A DNA stretch of 22,646 bases from a virus. Numbering within the stretch: position 1 is the first letter of the stretch; every line of letters begins with the position of its first letter. Made by a program: the position numbers and the translations under genes. Where the stretch lies: positions 1 through 22,646 of IMG/VR virus record IMGVR_UViG_3300007538_003647; one strand, 5' to 3'. Shown piece after piece: positions 7,237-22,197 of this stretch. The notes beneath the pieces were generated by a model. The model did no database searches, was not told where the DNA came from, and was given only the letters and a program-made list of their open reading frames with translations.

Positions 7237-8954
7237 TGATAAACTTTAAAAAACTAAAATTCAAGAACTTTGGTTCATTTGGTAATTCTCTTACCGAAAT
7301 TGATTTTACTGAGAACAACTTGATTTTAGTTTCTGGTTTGAACGGACGAGGGAAGTCATTTGCTTACCTTGATGCAATAACATTTGCATTATATGGCAAA
7401 CCGTTTCGAAAGATAAATATTCCTCAACTTGTCAATACGATTAATGGCAAAAACTGCTTAGTTGAACTGGAGTTCTCTATTGGATCTTCAACCTTCAAGA
7501 TAAGAAGAGGATTATCTCCGAAACTCTTTGAGATTTACAAGAATGATGTTCTGATTGATCAGAACGCAAAGTCCAAGGATTATCAATTGTTGTTGGACGA
7601 GCAAATCTTAAAGATGAACTATAAGACTTTTACTCAGGTTGTCATTCTAGGCAGATCTTCCTTCGTCCCGTTCTTGCAGTTGTCTCCGGCAGATAGAAGA
7701 CAAATTATTGAGAATATTTTGGACATCAATGTTTTCTCCAACATGAATCAAATAGCAAAGGCTAAAGTATCATTATTGAAAGAGAATATTAATGATATTC
7801 AGAAAAAAATTGAAACAACCGAAGAAAAAATTCAGTATCAAGAAAAGTATATCCTTAAACTGGAAGAGCAAAGAAACTCCTCAAAAACTAAAACCGAGGA
7901 GAAAATGGATACCCTCAAGACAGAAATAAAGACTCTGATCGAGTCTATAAAATCTTTAAAGGAATCTGTTCATGATGGCATCGGTGAAGACTCACTTGAT
8001 AATCTGAGAGACAAAAAGTCTTCGTTAAATTCCGAGAAGAATACAGTCGTGAACAAGATTACCTCTGCACAAAAGAATCTAGATTTCTATGAAGACAATG
8101 AAAACTGTCCTGTATGTAAGCAGTCTATAGACTCACACTTCCGAGAGAATAAGATTAGTGAATCGTCTAGTTCCATTCAAACCTTTGAAACTGAACTAGA
8201 TGGTATCAAGAAAACTATAGAGGAATGTGAAGCAGAAATAAAAGAAGTTTCTGATAAGCATAAAGAGAATCAGAAGATTCAAGAACAGTATAGTATCAAC
8301 ATGAAAGTTCTTCAGAATTACCAGAAGGAATACGAAGAACTGGAAAAGGAACTTTCAAAAGAACCTGAGAATCAAGAAGAACTAGAAAAAGAAACTCAGG
8401 ATCTTCATGATCTGAATATTGTTCTTGAGAACCAAAAGCAATCTTTTGAAGATTTTAAACTGCAAAAGAAAGAGTATGACATTTGTGTTTCTTTGCTGAA
8501 GGATAGTGGTATCAAGAGTAAGATCATCAAACACTACTTGCCTCTTATCAACCGTGTGATAAATACCTTCCTCACTAACATGAACTTCTTTACAAACTTT
8601 GAATTGAACGAGGAGTTTGAAGAGATCATAAAGAGCAGACACCGTGATAAGTTCTCTTATATGTCTTTCAGTGAAGGAGAAAAACTCAGGATTGATCTTG
8701 CACTTCTATTTGCTTGGCGGGAAGTTGCTAGAGTAAAGAACAGTGCAAATTGCAATCTTTTGATTCTTGATGAGATCTTTGATTCTTCTCTCGACTCGAC
8801 TGGTACGGAAGAACTGATGAGGAATTTGAAGACACTCAAAAAGAATGGTAGTGTAATTGTAATCAGCCATAAGTTGGATCAGTTGGCAGATAGATTCGAT
8901 AAGACAGTTCTAGTGGAAAAGAAGAACAACTTTAGTTCTATAAAGATAAAATGA
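7236..8954 (+). CDS. 46: Recombination endonuclease subunit gp46 (Rad50/SbcC type)
   Basis: Product of 572 residues; T4 gp46 has 560. This ABC-type ATPase partners gp47 in DNA end resection. Walker A is GLNGRGKS at 34-41. A long coiled coil from about 175 to 425 is split by the zinc-hook CPVC at 291-294. The ABC signature is SFSEGEK at 477-483 and Walker B is LLILDEIFD with D512-E513. The ATG at 7236 shares its A with the stop of the SET-like gene (TGATG). A TTG directly upstream would add one residue and is less likely. The 3' end overlaps the next gene as ATGA. Confidence 0.96.
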   Translation: MINFKKLKFKNFGSFGNSLTEIDFTENNLILVSGLNGRGKSFAYLDAITFALYGKPFRKINIPQLVNTINGKNCLVELEFSIGSSTFKIRRGLSPKLFEIYKNDVLIDQNAKSKDYQLLLDEQILKMNYKTFTQVVILGRSSFVPFLQLSPADRRQIIENILDINVFSNMNQIAKAKVSLLKENINDIQKKIETTEEKIQYQEKYILKLEEQRNSSKTKTEEKMDTLKTEIKTLIESIKSLKESVHDGIGEDSLDNLRDKKSSLNSEKNTVVNKITSAQKNLDFYEDNENCPVCKQSIDSHFRENKISESSSSIQTFETELDGIKKTIEECEAEIKEVSDKHKENQKIQEQYSINMKVLQNYQKEYEELEKELSKEPENQEELEKETQDLHDLNIVLENQKQSFEDFKLQKKEYDICVSLLKDSGIKSKIIKHYLPLINRVINTFLTNMNFFTNFELNEEFEEIIKSRHRDKFSYMSFSEGEKLRIDLALLFAWREVARVKNSANCNLLILDEIFDSSLDSTGTEELMRNLKTLKKNGSVIVISHKLDQLADRFDKTVLVEKKNNFSSIKIK

Positions 8955-9718
8955 GTTTATTTGAAGAAACCTTAGAAGATTACCTCCCGTTAATTAAAGA
9001 CTGGATAGATCCTCTTCCCCCTCCGATTGTGGAGGAACATGAGGGATTTCTAATTGTTCGAGATGATTTGATTGGAGGTGGATCTAAAATGAGATTTGCT
9101 GATTATCTAATCCGATCACAGCCTGAAATTAAAGAGTGGGTGTATGGGAGTTCTCCTGCAACTGGCTATGCACAGATATCTCTTGCTCGTCTATGTACTA
9201 AGTACGACAAGAAGGCTGTTATCTTTATGGCAGATAGAGCAGTCGAAAAAAGACACCCTTACCAGTTGCAGGCAATACAAGAGGGTGCTATAATGAACTG
9301 GGTTCCAAACGGAATGCTTTCCGTTACGGAAAAAAGAGCAAGAGACTATGTATCAGATAATCCTACATCTCGTCGATTGCTTCCTATTGGTTTTGACGAC
9401 CCCACGGTCATCGCGTCGATCATTCGTGTGGCACAATCTATGGATGTTTCACCCAGTGAGGTTTGGACGGTTGGTTCTTCTGGAACTCTTACTAGGGGAT
9501 TACAACTCGCTTGGTCGGACGCGGAGTTTCACTGTGTTCGGGTGGGACACACGGGAACATATGGTCGGGCGAAAATTTACAAGTCGTCCTATGCTTTCAA
9601 CAAACCGACGAAGGTTCTTCCCCCGTTTCCGTCGGCGCCCACCTATGATGCGAAAGCGTGGGAGTTTATGTTAGAACACGCCTCACCAGGCGCTCTTTTT
9701 TGGAATGTAGGTGCATGA
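8951..9718 (+). CDS. PLP-dependent fold-type-II enzyme (ACC deaminase / D-cysteine desulfhydrase-like)
   Basis: Product of 255 residues. The N-terminal VRDDLIGGGSKMRFADYL has the R-D-D-L-x-G-G-x-x-K-x-R pattern of the ACC deaminase and D-cysteine desulfhydrase group, with K46 as the likely PLP-bearing lysine. GSSPATGYAQISLA (66-79) fits the substrate or carboxylate loop, and TVGSSGTLTRGLQLAW (173-188) fits the glycine/serine loop that holds the cofactor phosphate. It is much shorter than ACC deaminases (about 330 residues) but ends in a compact, seemingly intact C-terminus. It is locked between gp46 and a methyltransferase by ATGA overlaps on both sides. Bases 9390-9660 look richer in G+C than the first half. 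The fold is well supported. The reaction is not known and could be a deaminase, lyase or desulfhydrase, or could act on a modified nucleotide. Confidence 0.75.
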   Translation: MSLFEETLEDYLPLIKDWIDPLPPPIVEEHEGFLIVRDDLIGGGSKMRFADYLIRSQPEIKEWVYGSSPATGYAQISLARLCTKYDKKAVIFMADRAVEKRHPYQLQAIQEGAIMNWVPNGMLSVTEKRARDYVSDNPTSRRLLPIGFDDPTVIASIIRVAQSMDVSPSEVWTVGSSGTLTRGLQLAWSDAEFHCVRVGHTGTYGRAKIYKSSYAFNKPTKVLPPFPSAPTYDAKAWEFMLEHASPGALFWNVGA

Positions 9719-14007: not shown

Positions 14008-14946
14008 ATGCTAGATCATGGTTTGTTCGTCGAGAAGTATCGTCCCCAGACACTGAGTGACTGCATACTTCCAAGTGAAATCAAAGACACTCTCACCAAG
14101 ATGGTGGAGTCTGGTGAATGCCACAACCTGCTTTTTCATGGTGGAGCAGGTTGTGGTAAAACCTCCGTTGCAAGAGCAATCTGCAACGATCTTGGAGCAG
14201 ATTACATTCTTATCAACTGCTCTGAGGATGGAAATATTGACACCTTGAGAACAAAGATTCGAAGTTTTGCAAGCACTGTTTCTTTGAATGGTAATGCAAA
14301 GGTTGTTATTCTAGATGAGTTTGATTATAGCAACGCTCAGAGTATTCAACCTGCTCTTCGTGGAGCGATTGAGGAGTTCTCTAAGAACTGTCGATTTATC
14401 ATCACTTGTAATTACAAGAATCGAATCATCTCCCCGATTCATTCTCGGTTCACGAATGTTGATTTTACAATCAAGAGTGATGAGAAGCCAAAGATTGCAC
14501 TGAAGATTCTTGGAAGGATTCAAGATATTCTGAAGACTGAGGGTATTCAATACGATCAAGAAGTTCTTGCAAAACTTATCACCAAGCACTTTCCAGACAT
14601 TCGTAGAATGCTGAATGAACTACAGAGGTATTCGTACAACGGTTCAATTGATGTTGGCATTCTTTCTTCGATGGGAGATGTTCATGTCAAGGATTTGATG
14701 AAAGCGATGAGTCAGAAGAACTTTGCTGAAGTTCGTAAGTGGGTTGTGAACAACCTAGATAATTCATACTCTGATATTTTTCGATCAATCTATGAGGGAC
14801 TGTCGGAGTATGTCAAGCCAAGTTCTATTCCTCAAGCAATCGTGACTCTTGGCGAATATCAATACAAGGCTGCTTTTGTTGCGGATCAGGAAATTAATCT
14901 AACTGCTCTGATGGTGGAGTTGATGATGGAGTGTGATTTCAAATGA
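14008..14946 (+). CDS. 44: Clamp loader ATPase subunit gp44
   Basis: Product of 312 residues; T4 gp44 has 319. This AAA+ subunit forms a tetramer which, with one gp62, opens gp45 and places it on primer-template DNA. It starts with FVEKYRPQTLSDCILP, the usual N-terminal signature of clamp-loader ATPases. Walker A is HGGAGCGKT at 44-52, Walker B is VVILDEFD with D103-E104, and SRF is at 146-148 (arginine-finger motif); the helical collar follows. GGAGG at 13991-13995 is 12 bases upstream, a long spacing. The stop overlaps the sulfotransferase start (ATGA), whereas in T4 and marine relatives gp62 normally follows directly. Confidence 0.96.
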   Translation: MLDHGLFVEKYRPQTLSDCILPSEIKDTLTKMVESGECHNLLFHGGAGCGKTSVARAICNDLGADYILINCSEDGNIDTLRTKIRSFASTVSLNGNAKVVILDEFDYSNAQSIQPALRGAIEEFSKNCRFIITCNYKNRIISPIHSRFTNVDFTIKSDEKPKIALKILGRIQDILKTEGIQYDQEVLAKLITKHFPDIRRMLNELQRYSYNGSIDVGILSSMGDVHVKDLMKAMSQKNFAEVRKWVVNNLDNSYSDIFRSIYEGLSEYVKPSSIPQAIVTLGEYQYKAAFVADQEINLTALMVELMMECDFK

Positions 14947-15497
14947 AAGTCTTCGGTATAGGAATGTTCAAGACAGGAACTACCTCTCTTGAAAAGGCTC
15001 TGGGTATTCTGGGTATCAGGCATATTCCGGGAGCAAATTATGGAGAATTGTTTTCATCATATATGAATGGTGTACATCAGGAGTACGATCCAGATGGATT
15101 TACTCCAGAGAAAATAGAAGCGATTAAACATGTAACAAGCCTTTTTGATGGATTCAGTGATCATCCTTGGATGTGGTCATATAAAGTTTGTCACCAGTTA
15201 TATCCAGACGCTAAGTTTATTTTGACTCTTCGAGAAAATTCTGATAAGATAGCAGACAGTGATATTAATTTCTGGAAGACGCATGGTGTGAGTGAAGAAG
15301 ACATTCCAGATAGAGAAGATTTTATTTTAAGGTATGAGAATCATAATGATATGGTTCGAGATTATTTTAAGGATAGTGATAACTATATCGAACTTTGTTG
15401 GGAGAATGGTGATGGATGGGAAGAACTCTGTCAGTTTTTAGATCTTCCTGTACCAAATGTAAAATTTCCTCATAAGAACAGGGGTGTATATTCATGA
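14943..15497 (+). CDS. Sulfotransferase-family protein
   Basis: Product of 184 residues. The N-terminal FGIGMFKTGTTSLEKAL is the PAPS 5'-phosphosulfate-binding loop (K10-T-G-T-T-S15) in the form typical of the Sulfotransfer_4-like group. YPDAKFILTLRE supplies the strand and R that bind the 3'-phosphate, and the end (WEELCQFLDLPVPNVKFPHKN) matches the common C-terminal W-x-x-L-C-x-F-L-x-x-P-x-P...P-H-x-N. It should transfer sulfate from PAPS to a hydroxyl acceptor, plausibly a glycan or small molecule; the acceptor is unknown. It overlaps gp44 and the GroES-like gene by ATGA, so it is co-translated with replication proteins, an unexpected place. It may functionally belong with the glycan cassette downstream of regA. 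Confidence 0.85.
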   Translation: MKVFGIGMFKTGTTSLEKALGILGIRHIPGANYGELFSSYMNGVHQEYDPDGFTPEKIEAIKHVTSLFDGFSDHPWMWSYKVCHQLYPDAKFILTLRENSDKIADSDINFWKTHGVSEEDIPDREDFILRYENHNDMVRDYFKDSDNYIELCWENGDGWEELCQFLDLPVPNVKFPHKNRGVYS

Positions 15498-16182: not shown

Positions 16183-16578
16183 ATGGAAGATGTATTTAAA
16201 GGATTGGGTGTACGAGTTAAATTAGAAGATGAAGATGACTTTCTGATCATAAAAGAAACTCTGACAAGGATGGGAGTTTCTTCTAGAAAAGAGAATAAGT
16301 TATTTCAGTCTTGCCATATTCTTCACAAGAAGGGAGAATATGCGATTGTTCATTTCAAAGAATTGTTTATTCTAGATGGATTAGAAAGTGACATCTCAGA
16401 GAGCGATGTAGGTAGAAGAAATCTTATTGCAAAACTTCTTGAAGAATGGGAACTTTGTGATATAATCGACACAGATCGAATAAAGGAACCTCTTGCGAGT
16501 ATGGGACAGATAAAGATTCTTTCTCATAAGAACAAGCATGAGTGGGAGTTGATACCGAAATACCACATAGGAAAATGA
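16183..16578 (+). CDS. regA: Translational repressor RegA
   Basis: Product of 131 residues; T4 RegA has 122. RegA binds the start-codon region of early phage mRNAs and blocks ribosome access. The match to T4 is strong: DDFLIIKETLTRMGV (T4 EDFLKVKETLTRMGI), FQSCHILHKKGEYAIVHFKE (T4 YQSCHILQKKGLYYIVHFKE), RRNLIAKLLEEWELCDII (T4 RRDSIAWLLEDWGLIEIV) and KHEWELIPKYHIGK (T4 KHEWKLVPKYTIGN). The last block carries residues linked to RNA binding. About nine extra residues lie at the N-terminus. The next gene starts three bases after the stop, so regA shares its transcript with the glycosyltransferase cassette. Confidence 0.97.
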   Translation: MEDVFKGLGVRVKLEDEDDFLIIKETLTRMGVSSRKENKLFQSCHILHKKGEYAIVHFKELFILDGLESDISESDVGRRNLIAKLLEEWELCDIIDTDRIKEPLASMGQIKILSHKNKHEWELIPKYHIGK

Positions 16579-16581
16579 TTT

Positions 16582-17214
16582 ATGAAAGTGATTAGTTTTT
16601 ATACTGTAGGTGACGACAACGATTATTACGAAAAATGTGCTGAACGACTTCGAAAGAATTGTTCTGACCTAAAAATAGATTTGGACTTGGTAGAAAAGAA
16701 ATCGCTCGGATCTTATCGAGTTAATTGTCTCTCAAAACCCCAGTTCATTCTCGACAAACTACAAGAGCATAATCAACCTGTTACATGGATTGATGTCGAT
16801 ACTATTTTTAGACAGTATCCGGCGGATTTTTATAACGAAAACTTGAAGAATGTTGACATAGCATTCTCCTCTTCGATACCAAATCTGGCTGGGATGAAAG
16901 CATCTCCTTTGTACTTTGCGAATAATGAAATTTCCAAGTCATTTCTTGGGGAGTGGATTCATATAGCGTCTGAAGTTTTGAAGCAGATGGATGTGAATTT
17001 CGATCATGAGATTTTATTTGGTATGTTCGAAAGACATAAGGAAGATTGTATGTACGGAGTATTCCCTCCAACATATTGTGTCTGGCCAGGTCATTCGAAT
17101 GAACACACCGTGATCGAAATGGGACTTTCAGACGTTCCTGACAAGGTGGAAGTTTTGAAGAAGATGGGAATTGATGGTGATCTTTTGAATGCTCAAACGA
17201 CAGGAATATTATGA
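16582..17214 (+). CDS. GT-A-type glycosyltransferase-like protein
   Basis: Product of 210 residues. The N-terminal part has the KVISFYTVGDDNDYYEKCA opening strand and helix seen in many phage nucleotide-sugar transferases. PVTWIDVDTIFRQYP holds the metal-binding D71-x-D73, with a preceding conserved KPQFILDKL helix. The rest (HEILFGMF, CMYGVFPPTYCVWPGH) fits an acceptor-binding half. It is the first gene of the sugar cassette, with AGGAAA at 16569-16574 upstream, and its stop overlaps the next gene as ATGA. Donor sugar and acceptor cannot be read from the sequence. Confidence 0.75.
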   Translation: MKVISFYTVGDDNDYYEKCAERLRKNCSDLKIDLDLVEKKSLGSYRVNCLSKPQFILDKLQEHNQPVTWIDVDTIFRQYPADFYNENLKNVDIAFSSSIPNLAGMKASPLYFANNEISKSFLGEWIHIASEVLKQMDVNFDHEILFGMFERHKEDCMYGVFPPTYCVWPGHSNEHTVIEMGLSDVPDKVEVLKKMGIDGDLLNAQTTGIL

Positions 17215-18062
17215 ATCGAATACAATGTATAGGTGCTGGGTTTGATTTAAATCATTCTACATGCTCAAACAAAAAACCAAAAACATTCGAGTGGACTTCG
17301 GATCCAGTCGAGAATCAGATTCTAATCGACAAAGCGATTTTGTTCTCGAATAAGATAGATAAAGGTTCTAGTAAGAAAAGATATGGATGGGTTTGCGAGT
17401 CTACGTCTATTGTTCCTGATGTCGTCGATGCTTTGTTTCATTATCATAAAATTATTTTCCAAGAAGGGAACTTTGAAGGAATATTTACATGTAGTGAAAA
17501 GTTATTAGATCTCGACGAAAGATTTATTCTTTGTCCTCCAGTCAGTAATCTTCCTTGGATTCCAGAAGATGGGTGGAATATCTACCCAAAGACAAAGAGT
17601 ATATCAATGTTCTGTTCACCCAAGGTTATGTGTGAGGGACACCGATTTAGACATAAGATAGCGGAAAAGAATCTTTCCAATCTAGATCTATTCGGTGGTG
17701 CTTTTGGATCACCACGGATAGGAATGTCAAACGATTTAAATACAAAATGGAATGATAAGAGAGATGGATTGTGTGATTATCGTTTTCATCTTGTTATCGA
17801 GAACGAGAAAGAGAATAATTATTACACAGAAAAACTAACAGATTGTTTTGCAACGGGTACTATTCCAATTTACTGGGGATGTGATAATGTTGGTGACTTT
17901 TTTGATGAGCATGGTATAATAAAGTTCACGGAAGATTTTGATCTAAATACATTGTCTGAAGAGTTGTATGAGGAGATGTTGCCTCATGTGAAGAATAATT
18001 TGGAAATTGTGAAATCTTTAGAGATGGTTGATGATGCAATCGCAAGACATATTTTCGACTAG
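17211..18062 (+). CDS. GT10 (fucosyltransferase-like) glycosyltransferase, copy 1
   Basis: Product of 283 residues. The C-terminal half carries the GT10 signature: CDYRFHLVIENEKENNYYTE (E197-N198, then T-E-K 206-208) and TIPIYWGCDNVGDFF, where GDP-fucose is bound in family members. The N-terminal half (RYGWVCESTSIVPDVVDALF, then GIFTCSEKLL) fits the acceptor domain. GT10 enzymes use GDP-L-fucose or related GDP-deoxysugars. Since a ColC/GDP-fucose-synthase and a ColD-like gene follow, this enzyme may transfer fucose or colitose. It shares the motif block with the gene at 20092, a likely paralogue. Joined upstream by ATGA; overlaps the next gene by about 32 bases. Confidence 0.82.
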   Translation: MNRIQCIGAGFDLNHSTCSNKKPKTFEWTSDPVENQILIDKAILFSNKIDKGSSKKRYGWVCESTSIVPDVVDALFHYHKIIFQEGNFEGIFTCSEKLLDLDERFILCPPVSNLPWIPEDGWNIYPKTKSISMFCSPKVMCEGHRFRHKIAEKNLSNLDLFGGAFGSPRIGMSNDLNTKWNDKRDGLCDYRFHLVIENEKENNYYTEKLTDCFATGTIPIYWGCDNVGDFFDEHGIIKFTEDFDLNTLSEELYEEMLPHVKNNLEIVKSLEMVDDAIARHIFD

Positions 18063-18957
18063 AGACTATTTAATAACAGGTGGTTCTGGACTGGTTGGAA
18101 CTGCGCTGAATGGTGGTAAAAAACCAAGCAGTTCGGTTCTTAACTTACTATCTCCCAAGTCAACATTCGAATGGTTTGAAAAAAATCAAGTAAGGAATGT
18201 TATACACTGTGCAGGTAGAGTCGGTGGTATAGGTGCAAACTCTGCTAAAAAAGGAACATTCCTTCGTGAAAACTTGATGATGACTATAAACTTGTTTGAG
18301 TCATCAAGAGTTTCTGGTGTCGATAAAATTGCTTCATTTCTTTCGACATGTATTTTCCCAGACAATGTTAAGTATCCTTTGACTGTTGATCAGATCTTTA
18401 ATGGTCCTCCCCATGACAGCAATTATGGTTACGCACATGCAAAGAGAATGCAATATGTTCAAGCGATGGCTTATAGGGAAGAATATGGCATGAACATTGT
18501 TTCTTTGGTTCCATGTAACATCTACGGAATTAATGACAATTTCAACATATCTTCTGGTCATGTAATACCATCGTTGATTCATAAGTTTTATGCTGCGATG
18601 AAGAATAAGACTAATGTTGAAATCTGGGGAACTGGTAGAGAAAAAAGAGAGTTTCTTTTTGCGAATGACCTTCACCAGATCGTTGCATGGGTAATGGACA
18701 ACTATAATGAGCAAGAACCTTTGATAATTTCTCCAGACGAAGAGTATGAAATAGGCGATGTAGTAGAATTGATAAGAAAAGAATTTGAATTTAAGGGAGA
18801 AGTCACTTATAATGGTGAGATGTCTGGACAATTCAGAAAACCATCAGACTCTTCTAAGTTAAAGAAACTGATGAATCCAGAGTTTACTACGTTGGAAAGT
18901 GGTATCAGGCAAACAGTAAATTGGTTTGTGAAAAACTATAAAAAGGCTAGAAAATGA
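18031..18957 (+). CDS. GDP-L-fucose synthase / GDP-L-colitose synthase (ColC)-like epimerase-reductase
   Basis: Product of 308 residues, an extended SDR enzyme. TGGSGLVG at 16-23 is the nucleotide-binding loop. NVIHCAGRVGGIGANSAKKG resembles GDP-fucose synthase (HLAAxVGGIxAN). Catalytic S105 with C107 (LSTCIFP), Y134-x-x-x-K138 (YGYAHAK) and H177 (SSGHVIP) match the S107/C109, Y136/K140 and H179 residues of the E. coli enzyme. EIWGTGREKREFLF matches the substrate-binding WGTGxPxREFLYVDD. It epimerises and reduces a GDP-4-keto-deoxyhexose. With the ColD-like gene immediately after it (ATGA overlap), ColC (GDP-colitose) is at least as likely as fucose synthase. Starts are ATG 18031 or 18034 within the previous gene. 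Confidence 0.88.
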   Translation: MMQSQDIFSTRDYLITGGSGLVGTALNGGKKPSSSVLNLLSPKSTFEWFEKNQVRNVIHCAGRVGGIGANSAKKGTFLRENLMMTINLFESSRVSGVDKIASFLSTCIFPDNVKYPLTVDQIFNGPPHDSNYGYAHAKRMQYVQAMAYREEYGMNIVSLVPCNIYGINDNFNISSGHVIPSLIHKFYAAMKNKTNVEIWGTGREKREFLFANDLHQIVAWVMDNYNEQEPLIISPDEEYEIGDVVELIRKEFEFKGEVTYNGEMSGQFRKPSDSSKLKKLMNPEFTTLESGIRQTVNWFVKNYKKARK

Positions 18958-20102
18958 CAAAGATTTTTGATGAATGGAAGTTGATGGATGAAGCAATTCC
19001 TCAAGATCATCTGGAGGAGATGTCTAACTTTATTCTGTCTGGTAATAAATTAACCTATGGCGAAAACATTAAACGGTTTGAGAATGCGTGGTCAAACTGG
19101 CAAGGATGTAAGTATTCCGTTTTTTGTAACTCTGGATCATCTGCAAATTTTCTTGCAGTGAATGCTGTTGAGCCAGATCATGGTAAAGCACTCTGGGTTT
19201 CCTCTGCTTGCACATGGTCAACAACAGTTTCTCCTATCATGTTGAAAAATGATCACCTTCAATTGTGTGATGTAAATCTGAATAACTTTGCACCCGATCT
19301 AAACGTACTCGAAGAGATTTTTAGGAATCAATCCCCGAAGTATCTTTTCTTAGTTCACCTTCTGGGGTTTAATTGTTATTCCGAGGAACTACAACAACTC
19401 TGTGACATGTATGGTGTAACAATTCTAGAAGATTGCTGTGAAGCGCACGGTGCAAACTACAAGGGAACAAAGGTTGGTAACTTTGGTAAAACCTCATCAT
19501 TTTCTTTCTACTATGGTCATCATATGACCACCATTGAAGGTGGTATGGTTTGTACTAATGATGAGTCTATTTACAAGAGACTTCTTCTTCTCCGTTCACA
19601 TGGACTCATGAGAGAGTTGCCTCAAGAAATGCAACAGGAACATCTTGAAGAGATGGTAGATCCTAATTTTACTTTCTTGATTCCAGGCTTCAACATGAGA
19701 TCTACCGAGATCAATGCCATACTTGGTATGAAGCAGATAGAAGATCTGGACAGTAGAATAGAAATTAGAAATGAAAACTATTTTAGATTTTGTGACAGAC
19801 TAGATGGAAACAAGTATGAAAATAACTTTGATCGAACTGGGATGTCCAACTTCTGTTTTCCTGTAATCAGAAAAGATGGTAGAATCTCTGAAGTTAAGAA
19901 AACATTACTAGAAAACAAAATTCATATTCGACCAATAATCGCTGGTAGTTTGTATGAGCATCCATTTATGAAGAGTGTTAACATGAAACGCTATGATAAG
20001 AACTCTTCATATATTCACAACAACGGAATTTACGTTGGTAATAATCACACAATAAATAATGACATGGTAGATTATTTAACGGACACTCTAAATGCTATAT
20101 GA
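18954..20102 (+). CDS. ColD-like PLP-dependent GDP-4-keto-6-deoxymannose 3-dehydratase
   Basis: Product of 382 residues of the DegT/DnrJ/EryC1 family; E. coli ColD is 388. The family lysine that binds PLP (SFF-x-x-K-x-x-x-x-x-EGG) is replaced: SFSFYYGHHMTTIEGG puts H189 there, the mark of ColD, which removes the 3-hydroxyl instead of transaminating. Other ColD-like blocks include SSGS-type CNSGSSANFL, ACTWSTTVSPI, LLGFNCYSEELQQL, LEDCCEAHGA, LLRSHGLMRELP (ColD IRAHGWTRNLP), FLIPGFNMRSTEIN, HIRPIIAG and NGIYVGNNHT (ColD NGLFVGNHQI). The cysteine cluster of the Fe-S RfbH/AscC 3-dehydrases, which also have this His, is not seen. The substrate GDP-4-keto-6-deoxymannose would come from Gmd, which is not in the window. 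The product would pass to the ColC-like enzyme encoded just upstream. Confidence 0.87.
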   Translation: MTKIFDEWKLMDEAIPQDHLEEMSNFILSGNKLTYGENIKRFENAWSNWQGCKYSVFCNSGSSANFLAVNAVEPDHGKALWVSSACTWSTTVSPIMLKNDHLQLCDVNLNNFAPDLNVLEEIFRNQSPKYLFLVHLLGFNCYSEELQQLCDMYGVTILEDCCEAHGANYKGTKVGNFGKTSSFSFYYGHHMTTIEGGMVCTNDESIYKRLLLLRSHGLMRELPQEMQQEHLEEMVDPNFTFLIPGFNMRSTEINAILGMKQIEDLDSRIEIRNENYFRFCDRLDGNKYENNFDRTGMSNFCFPVIRKDGRISEVKKTLLENKIHIRPIIAGSLYEHPFMKSVNMKRYDKNSSYIHNNGIYVGNNHTINNDMVDYLTDTLNAI

Positions 20103-20964
20103 CCCTGTTATAAAGAACGGAGAATATCTTTATCGCCCAGATTTAAAGTATGAATTTCCAGTAGAAATTCACTTTACAAGAATGGAAACTTTTGACGACG
20201 AAAACTCGTTCAAAGTTTTAGTTCTTTCCAATGAATCAATGATGTCTCCAAACAGATCAACAGTTGATGATGTGATTCGATATCATCAAAGATATGATCT
20301 GATTCTTTGTGCAGATGACTATATCATAACCTTTTGTCCTAATGCAATACTGTTCCCGTATGGAAGTACTTGGTTAAACCGAGGAAAGATAAATCATCCA
20401 GACGGGTTGGGGTGTTATGAGGATGATGTCGAAGTTTTTCGTAACAATAACAAAAAGTTTGGAGTGAGTTTTCTTGCATCATGGTATAGAATTGATCGAC
20501 CTGGTTACAATTTAAGAAGACAGTTGTGGCAAAGACAGTTTGATATAAAGATTCCTAGAAGTTTTTATACTAGCACTAAATGTTTTTCACCAGATGCTAG
20601 GGATGCTTTTCCTTTACCTAACGGAGAAAAGGAAACCTTGTTCGATAGCATCTATCATGTTTGTATAGAGAATCATTCTGTTGGTCATTATTTCACCGAA
20701 AAGATAGTGGATGCTTTTCTATCAGAGACTATGCCAATATATTGGGGATGTCCTAACATAGAAGACTACTTTAATCCAGAAGGTATTATAACTTTCCAAA
20801 CGATTGACGAGTTGATAAACAAAATAAATAGTTTGACGCCAGACTATTATCATGATAGACTTAATGTCGTTCAAGAAAATAAGAAGCGAGCGATAGAGTT
20901 TGCTAATTTTGATGAAAGAATTTTCAACACCATAAAGGATTTTTATAATGATTCCCTTGACTGA
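20092..20964 (+). CDS. GT10 (fucosyltransferase-like) glycosyltransferase, copy 2
   Basis: Product of 290 residues. SIYHVCIENHSVGHYFTEK (E193-N194, T-E-K 202-204) and TMPIYWGCPNIEDYFNPEG are the GT10 signature, close to the block of the gene at 17211. FGVSFLASWYRIDRPGYNLR fits the segment just before the donor-binding half, where bacterial GT10 enzymes have an arginine-rich loop. The N-terminal half (VLVLSNESMMSP, ILCADDYIIT) forms the acceptor domain. The ATG lies 11 bases inside the ColD-like gene. It probably transfers the GDP-sugar made by the two preceding enzymes; the acceptor is unknown. Confidence 0.82.
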   Translation: MLYDPVIKNGEYLYRPDLKYEFPVEIHFTRMETFDDENSFKVLVLSNESMMSPNRSTVDDVIRYHQRYDLILCADDYIITFCPNAILFPYGSTWLNRGKINHPDGLGCYEDDVEVFRNNNKKFGVSFLASWYRIDRPGYNLRRQLWQRQFDIKIPRSFYTSTKCFSPDARDAFPLPNGEKETLFDSIYHVCIENHSVGHYFTEKIVDAFLSETMPIYWGCPNIEDYFNPEGIITFQTIDELINKINSLTPDYYHDRLNVVQENKKRAIEFANFDERIFNTIKDFYNDSLD

Positions 20965-21580
20965 AGAATATCATCCAAAACAAGTCAAGTCTGTTATGGA
21001 TTTGATGGATAAATTTGATATAACTGATATGATTTATTGTGATGTTGGTTCCTGTGTAGGAGAACTGTTGCAATATTATTCTCAGATGATGAGTTTTGGT
21101 TATGCTTTTGAGCCAAATGTAGGTAACTATAATTTCTTGGTAGAAAACTATCTCAGTGATAAAGTTGTTATAGAAAACTTGGCTGTTTCTTCAGAGTGTG
21201 GAGTTATAGATTTTCTTTCTACAGAGAAAAAAGGGGATCATTGTTCGCGCAATAAAAAATACGCCGACAAGAATAATGAGTCTTCTGATTATGTTGTTAA
21301 ATCTGTTCCTTGCGTGACACTAGATTCATACTTTGAAAATAAAGAAATTGATTTCATTAAGGTAGATGTTGAGGGTGAAGAGTGGGAAGTTCTCAGGGGT
21401 GCTCAGAATCTCATGAGAAACACTAATGTTATTTTTCAAGTAGAATTTCACAATCGAGATAATTGGGATCAGAGAGAAATTATTTATGATAACGGTTACG
21501 AAATATACTCTCTAGAATTAGAAAAGTATGATAGAGATTGTGAACGTCCCTACCAAGCGTTTTTAATGAAAGGTGATTGA
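20948..21580 (+). CDS. FkbM-family SAM-dependent methyltransferase
   Basis: Product of 210 residues. YCDVGSCVGELLQYY (motif I, D32), GYAFEPNVGNYNFL with the acidic E55 that binds SAM ribose, ENLAVSSECGVIDFL and DFIKVDVEGEEWEVLRGA (138-152) are the ordered blocks of the FkbM family, whose members mostly O-methylate sugars or secondary metabolites. In this cassette it may methylate the transferred deoxysugar. It overlaps the GT10 gene by 17 bases and shares a base with the next gene (TGATG). Confidence 0.9.
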   Translation: MIPLTEEYHPKQVKSVMDLMDKFDITDMIYCDVGSCVGELLQYYSQMMSFGYAFEPNVGNYNFLVENYLSDKVVIENLAVSSECGVIDFLSTEKKGDHCSRNKKYADKNNESSDYVVKSVPCVTLDSYFENKEIDFIKVDVEGEEWEVLRGAQNLMRNTNVIFQVEFHNRDNWDQREIIYDNGYEIYSLELEKYDRDCERPYQAFLMKGD

Positions 21581-22197
21581 TGCCAAAGGATCCTCAGCAT
21601 ATAAAACTTAGTATTCTAATACTTTCCATCCCGTCTAGAATCGAAAAACTTCAAAAACTTATTTCAAGATTAGAATCCCAGATTACAGACAATGATGTAG
21701 AGATTCTGTCTCTTCTTGATAACAAGTCTTTTCACATTTACGAGAAACGTAACGAACTTCTAGAGATGGCTAGAGGTGATTATATTTGTTTCCTAGATGA
21801 CGATGATTTCATCACAGAAGATTATGTTCCTTCAGTTCTAAAAGCGATTGATGAGAATCCTGATGTTATCTGTTTTAAACAACATTGTAACTACAATGGA
21901 TATCCTTTCGATGTTTACTTTGACATCAACCATCAATGGTCACCAATGGAACAACTTCGGTTTAATGGAATAAGTTTCAACGACCTCAAGCGACCTCCTT
22001 TTCATATGTGTCCGTTCAAGTCGGAAATATCCAAGTCTGAAAAGTTCAGAGAAAAGTATGACTCGAACGGTCAGTCATGTGAAGATGCAGACTGGTTGCT
22101 TAGACTATATCCCAAGGTAAAGAGTCAAGTTTTTATTGACAAGGTTTTGCATCAATATCTTTATAGTAGTCAAGAAACGGAGTCGATCCTAAAATGA
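21580..22197 (+). CDS. Family 2-type glycosyltransferase
   Basis: Product of 205 residues. HIKLSILILSIPSRIEKLQK is the N-terminal GT2 strand and helix, KRNELLEMARGDYICFLDDD has the R-N-x-x-x-x-x-x-G-x-Y-x-x-F-L-D-D-D pattern with the metal-binding DDDD at 73-76, and SCEDADWLLRLYP carries the ED acceptor-side motif. Short for the family but apparently complete. ATG 21580 shares its A with the FkbM stop; a TTG just upstream would add one residue. The stop overlaps the next gene as ATGA. Sugar and acceptor are unknown. Confidence 0.85.
   Translation: MPKDPQHIKLSILILSIPSRIEKLQKLISRLESQITDNDVEILSLLDNKSFHIYEKRNELLEMARGDYICFLDDDDFITEDYVPSVLKAIDENPDVICFKQHCNYNGYPFDVYFDINHQWSPMEQLRFNGISFNDLKRPPFHMCPFKSEISKSEKFREKYDSNGQSCEDADWLLRLYPKVKSQVFIDKVLHQYLYSSQETESILK

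Follow-up and report, generated by a model that had tools for sequence, protein, structure and literature searches.

A ColD-like enzyme of a marine T4-like virus, predicted to be a GDP-sugar 3-dehydratase, is encoded beside a ColC-like partner

ColD of Escherichia coli O55 represents a characterised kind of 3-dehydratase. As described in a review (PMC8987622), catalysis by ColD begins with a Schiff base between PMP and the 4-keto sugar; a histidine abstracts a proton and the C3 hydroxyl is lost, followed by release and hydrolysis of the enamine and regeneration of PMP by glutamate. E1, of the RfbH type, shares the His-based PMP chemistry and, according to the same review, carries a [2Fe-2S] cluster and requires E3 (PMC8987622). 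In E. coli O55, colC is placed ahead of colD with a 4-bp overlap, and the cluster includes a GT11 gene. GDP-perosamine synthase differs from these enzymes in having a catalytic lysine and carrying out transamination; its substrate, GDP-4-keto-6-deoxymannose, is the same as that of ColD.

The DNA analysed here (the window) is a one-contig virus record of 22,646 bases. It harbors T4-like core genes, namely, those for the major head protein (PHROG 138), gp45 (PHROG 223) and gp44 (PHROG 168), along with a DNA helicase and a gp46/SbcC-like subunit. The head protein was nearest to those of marine cyanophages and also near that of pelagiphage HTVC008M, all at <58% identity among the matches listed, and the virus is a marine T4-like one. 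A sulfotransferase (PF17784, 6.7e-32) is encoded at 14943-15497, directly after gp44. The ORF at 8951-9718 (255 aa) showed no Pfam match at 0.001; it has GGGSKMR near its N-terminus, which we take to resemble a fold-type II PLP enzyme. The glycan genes and the ORF of interest are arranged as follows:

16183-16578, regA-type translation repressor (PHROG 242), just before the glycan genes
16582..17214, + strand, first ORF of the cluster, following regA, with weak similarity to nucleotide-diphospho-sugar transferases (PF03407, 19.6 bits, below the cut-off of 22)
17211..18062, + strand, GT10 of the fucosyltransferase type, directly upstream of the ColC-like ORF (PF00852, 34.8 bits, cut-off 23.9)
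18028..18957, + strand, ColC/WcaG-like epimerase-reductase, 309 aa (best PDB match, NCBIfam, conserved Fcl residues)
18954..20102, + strand, predicted ColD-like PMP-dependent GDP-sugar 3-dehydratase, 382 aa, catalytic His189 (PDB search, model and fold search, residue map, tree)
19497..19544, + strand, motif SFSFYYGHHMTTIEGG, residues 182-197 of the ColD-like ORF (coordinates from codon arithmetic)
20092..20964, + strand, probable second GT10-like transferase, directly downstream of the ColD-like ORF (PF00852, 21.0 bits, below the cut-off of 23.9)
20948..21580, + strand, FkbM-family methyltransferase of the same glycan cluster (PF05050)
21577..22197, + strand, GT2 glycosyltransferase (PF00535)

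An independent contig (L002) encodes a protein identical to the ColD-like ORF amid the same genes. In the ORF list of this contig, the GT10 and GT2 ORFs have no FkbM methyltransferase ORF between them, and the glycan cluster therefore varies between near-identical viruses.

The original prediction had started from the replacement of the PLP lysine by histidine in a DegT-family enzyme, and MAFFT alignment bore this out, with H189 (codon 19518-19520) occupying the Schiff-base lysine position and aligning with H188 of ColD. The motif itself was read correctly, although it had been placed at 19500-19545 and its true start is three bases earlier. The same column contains histidine in two RfbH-like proteins and lysine in E. 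coli ArnB. The homologue scans, each with one pattern that contained HHM, drew on 80 matches listed of 558 confirmed stretches and on 80 of 533. His was kept in all 166 ColD-like rows aligned, a count biased by the presence of HHM in one search pattern behind the rows, and HT replaced HH in six of them. Lysine was present in 9/186 aligned rows, all of the aminotransferase type (eight viral or bacterial ORFs and ArnB). Since the independent contig gives an identical protein and the aligned ColD-like rows keep the residue, H189 is not a sequencing slip.

By sequence and by modelled fold, no solved relative comes closer than E. coli ColD; E1/RfbH and all the sugar aminotransferases rank behind it. 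The best PDB sequence was ColD (2gms, E 4.9e-53), followed by RfbH/E1 (3bcx, 1.2e-29) and perosamine synthetase (3bn1, 3.5e-26); the identity to ColD was 31% across 375 aligned positions. The window ORF matched the Pfam family DegT_DnrJ_EryC1, and the NCBIfam models for RfbH (174 bits, cut-off 423) and PseC (173 bits, cut-off 423.5) both scored below cut-off, so the ORF has earned no equivalog name. An AlphaFold model (49 sequences; pLDDT 93.0, pTM 0.91) was compared with solved structures, as the original prediction had proposed to do with ColD, and ColD was the closest in both searches. Foldseek ranked it first (3.3e-31), the best 14 rows being 12 ColD chains and 2 of E1. VIA gave a Z of 49.1 for ColD (rmsd 2.1, 374 aligned), 45.7 for E1 and 44.7 for the best aminotransferase, i.e., leads of 3.4 and 4.4; it is the order and not the height of these scores that serves as evidence, because the whole superfamily scores high. 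The fold is shared with ColD across 374 to 376 aligned residues, and also with RfbH/E1 and the GDP-perosamine synthases (3bn1, 3dr4, 3dr7).

The likeness to ColD extends to the active site. Residues S60, G61, W88, D160, C162, E163 and S184 of the window protein correspond to S55, G56, W88, D159, C161, E162 and S183 of ColD, and H189, R214, H216, R220, N247 and R249 correspond to H188, R213, H215, R219, N248 and R250. Five of these (W88, E163, R214, H216 and R220) are common to the two proteins, and the RfbH reference differs at each of them; opposite R220 it has one of the cysteines regarded as Fe-S ligands. The alignment columns that we take from the E1 literature to be those of the four RfbH Fe-S cysteines, with which the observed spacing fits, hold one Cys (C162), an R, a gap and a P in the window protein, and the C162 column is Cys in E. 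coli ColD as well. The cysteine cluster of RfbH/AscC-type dehydrases, reported as not seen in the original prediction, is thus lacking at three of its four positions; ColD likewise has no Fe-S cysteine set. A reading as an Fe-S 3-dehydrase (RfbH/E1/SpnQ) was ruled out, the four-cysteine [2Fe-2S] motif being absent.

A quick tree was built from 94 of the 186 aligned rows, omitting near-duplicate and short rows as well as, from L092 upward, the genome loci with even numbers. The window protein was one of the 8 members of an all-viral group (SH-aLRT 99), itself nested in an all-viral group of 20 (SH-aLRT 99). ColD and 84 other His rows were set apart from three RfbH rows (SH-aLRT 93); the branch of E. 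coli ColD was long and basal. Sequence and model together make a GDP-sugar 3-dehydratase the best reading of the window ORF, as had been predicted; the identity as a 3-dehydratase is firmly predicted, with the GDP base and the activity predicted from the nearness to ColD.

The strongest support for this function is the upstream ColC-like gene, which was absent from the original prediction and makes the case stronger than it was by the motif alone. The ColC-like ORF is listed with a TTG start, with more Met codons immediately after, and overlaps the start of the ColD-like ORF by 4 bp; gene order and overlap are the same as in E. coli O55. Its best PDB match was GDP-L-fucose synthase (E 2.9e-72), and it scored 198 bits against the NCBIfam model GDPFucSynFcl, under the cut-off of 500. 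The residues at Fcl S107, C109, Y136, K140 and H179 are kept; the epimerase Cys and His and the S-Y-K triad are common to E. coli Fcl and E. coli ColC. With 30% identity to ColC, 29% to Fcl and catalytic residues identical in both, the ORF lies equally close to the two.

The pairing recurs in related viruses. A ColC-like gene was found directly upstream in 9/9 loci of the window subclade (L007-L010, L012-L016); of the 17 loci that the wider viral clade has outside this subclade, 6 had a directly adjoining Fcl-like gene. Among the matches listed, an Fcl-like neighbour was present in 43/79 viral loci and 18/80 bacterial and archaeal loci; the same cut-offs applied as a control to viral Lys-type DegT loci gave one in 57. 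In L008 and L009 the pair is flanked by gp45 and gp44, gp44 comes directly after it in L010, a DNA polymerase gene follows it in L007 and L012, and in L014 and L016 it is found amid GT11 and GT10 genes. In view of these varied sites among T4-like core genes, the pair behaves as a two-gene unit and looks like a cassette.

The window enzyme differs from ColD in being viral and in its limited sequence identity, and its locus differs from E. coli O55 in having GT10 rather than GT11 neighbours; no GMD, mannose-activation genes or O-antigen flippase/polymerase were recognised in the window. We consider it probable (roughly 0.72), by analogy, that the ORF encodes a ColD-type, Fe-S-free PMP-dependent 3-dehydratase which, with its ColC-like partner, leads to GDP-L-colitose. 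A GDP-mannose-derived substrate is fairly well indicated by the analogy with ColD, and the likely product is not an amino sugar but L-colitose or a closely related sugar, since a ColD relative adjoins its usual partner gene. The exact substrate and product we infer, as ColC-like and fucose-synthase sequences are inseparable and the window has no GMD; the glutamate dependence and the glycan target are likewise put forward by comparison. In the proposed scheme, glutamate would convert PLP to PMP as in ColD, and PMP would then be joined, as a Schiff base, to GDP-4-keto-6-deoxy-D-mannose at its C4 keto group. H189 would remove a proton from PMP with departure of the C3 hydroxyl, and the enamine would be freed and then hydrolysed to GDP-4-keto-3,6-dideoxymannose, which the upstream ColC-like enzyme may convert by C5 inversion and C4 reduction to GDP-L-colitose. 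A neighbouring GT10 fucosyltransferase-type enzyme could move colitose onto a glycan. The premise of the original prediction, that ColD employs its His as the base and uses PMP and glutamate for 3-deoxygenation, is in agreement with PMC8987622.

The sugar itself is where another reading has some room. Here the enzyme would still be a ColD-type 3-dehydratase, with a different GDP sugar as its substrate or end product (a D-configured 3,6-dideoxy sugar or a 6-deoxy-heptose, for example), and L-colitose would not be made. According to PMC10440746, GDP-6-deoxy-4-keto-heptose is used by enzymes of Campylobacter jejuni HS:5 and HS:11 that share 62-67% identity with ColD, and the sugar can therefore not be fixed by sequence at 31% identity. 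Other partners also occur in the wider viral clade, i.e., a perosamine-synthase-like gene in four loci (L011, L017, L018, L027) and another SDR downstream in four (L019, L022, L024, L025). The C. jejuni pathway, however, has a separate epimerase and reductase (PMC10440746), whereas in the window one Fcl/ColC-like protein, with the epimerase-site Cys and His and the S-Y-K triad retained, serves as partner, and GMD stands alongside the pair in cyanophages S-CAM7 and ACG-2014f; a different GDP sugar is thus unlikely, though it is the most credible of the alternatives. Less probable still is that the upstream gene encodes nothing more than a GDP-L-fucose synthase serving the GT10 enzymes, with the His enzyme a separate function or a relic. 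The top PDB match of the upstream ORF would fit such a role, as would cyanophage P-SSM2, which under the same match has an Fcl-like gene and an annotated GDP-mannose dehydratase. The 4-bp overlap, the linkage throughout the window subclade and the placement of the pair alone between gp45 and gp44 in two loci speak against it, as do the intact ORF, its conserved active-site residues and the same protein in a second contig.

An identity as a sugar aminotransferase, which the PHROG, Pfam and RefSeq names imply, is very improbable. Pfam DegT_DnrJ_EryC1 and PHROG 3139 ('aminotransferase') favour it, and PMC8987622 describes SpnQ, a His enzyme, as transaminating without reductase; ColD and E1, however, had no transferase activity under the conditions where SpnQ had it. 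With no lysine at the Schiff-base position and the ColD structure closer than that of any aminotransferase, this reading was ruled out by the His, the nearest structures and the ColD literature (PMC8987622).

More complete gene sets for the predicted route that we favour, from ColD-like dehydration to GDP-L-colitose, are carried by two cultured cyanophages. S-CAM7 and ACG-2014f have GMD, ColC-like, ColD-like and GT11 genes in a row. Their ColD-like proteins (S-CAM7 gp230, ACG-2014f gp225) share with the window the motif GHHMTT(V/I)EGG and the ColC-like gene upstream; they differ in having 36-37% identity to the window protein, in the GMD in the row and in the GT11 downstream, and the S-CAM7 ColC-like protein is closer to E. 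coli Fcl (48%). The cyanophage GMD proteins showed 63-65% identity to E. coli Gmd, that of S-CAM7 scoring 539.7 bits with TIGR01472 (cut-off 415). A complete GDP-colitose route is therefore predicted for both phages, which opens the idea to a direct test in cultured cyanophages. GMD was not found in the window or in L002, both of which are fragments; a strong GMD match (>340 bits) was obtained in 9/23 related virus records and in 1/10 records of the window subclade, all fragments. The window virus may thus rely on host GMD or encode one elsewhere.

Some ColD-like genes of the wider clade come after a Lys-type DegT gene. A scan with this Lys-type protein gave 59 viral loci, 57 of which had a Lys ORF of at least 150 bits. 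A ColD-like ORF was directly beside the Lys ORF in 29 of the 57 and anywhere in the locus in 32, with His kept in 26/26 ColD-like ORFs examined (two of these, in L186 and L187, were not adjacent). The closest PDB entry to the Lys protein was GDP-perosamine synthase 3dr7 (3.5e-69), a structure with GDP-3-deoxyperosamine bound. The small ORF directly upstream of the Lys gene was DUF6165 in 5/5 examined, and a DUF6165-like ORF was present in 35/59 loci; none was found in the window. The module of DUF6165, Lys DegT and His DegT recurs in L170-L228, e.g., at L170:5640-8240, L178:5625-8267 and L182:5646-8269. It is possible, though on balance doubtful, that the His 3-dehydratase is an exchangeable part of two cassettes in marine T4-like and jumbo viruses, colC-colD leading to GDP-L-colitose and DUF6165-Lys-His leading to GDP-3-deoxyperosamine. 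So read, the Lys-His module would predict GDP-3-deoxyperosamine (4-amino-3,4,6-trideoxymannose) as its product and a role for DUF6165 in it. To our knowledge, this compound has been made in vitro only, in work in which ColD reportedly supplied the substrate. L186 and L187, whose ColD-like proteins score 560 and 591 bits against that of the window, contain a ColC-ColD pair of the window type, with a Lys-type DegT gene ~4 kb downstream of the pair and a DUF6165-like ORF in the locus.

The enzyme itself is a viral addition to the known ColD type; the points of note are the predicted viral colitose route and the possible second cassette. No viral ColD or colitose route was found in the open-licence literature, judged by titles and abstract openings. 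We know of 3,6-dideoxy sugars only from bacterial surface glycans, and L-colitose on the host or virion surface could alter which phages adsorb. The expectation that routine annotation would name an aminotransferase held for PHROG 3139, for the RefSeq cyanophage homologues and for E. coli O55 ColD itself. RefSeq names the row in S-CAM7 and ACG-2014f as 'nucleotide-sugar epimerase' twice, 'aminotransferase' and 'glycosyltransferase', and one S-CAM7 GenBank record gives 'putative CDP-4-keto-6-deoxy-D-glucose-3-dehydrase'. Viral genes named 'aminotransferase' can be C3-dehydratases, and the name masks a possible viral 3,6-dideoxy-sugar route. E. coli O55 ColD (NC_013941.1 2553701-2554867; L169:11702-12868) is entered in RefSeq as 'DegT/DnrJ/EryC1/StrS family aminotransferase'. 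The 642-kb uncultured phage LR756502.1 (L006) encodes a ColC-ColD pair and a separate RfbH-like ORF with the Fe-S cysteines, its ColD-like and Fe-S RfbH-like 3-dehydrases lying at L006:9953-11122 and 17511-18812, and both types also occur together in L056, L057 and L085.
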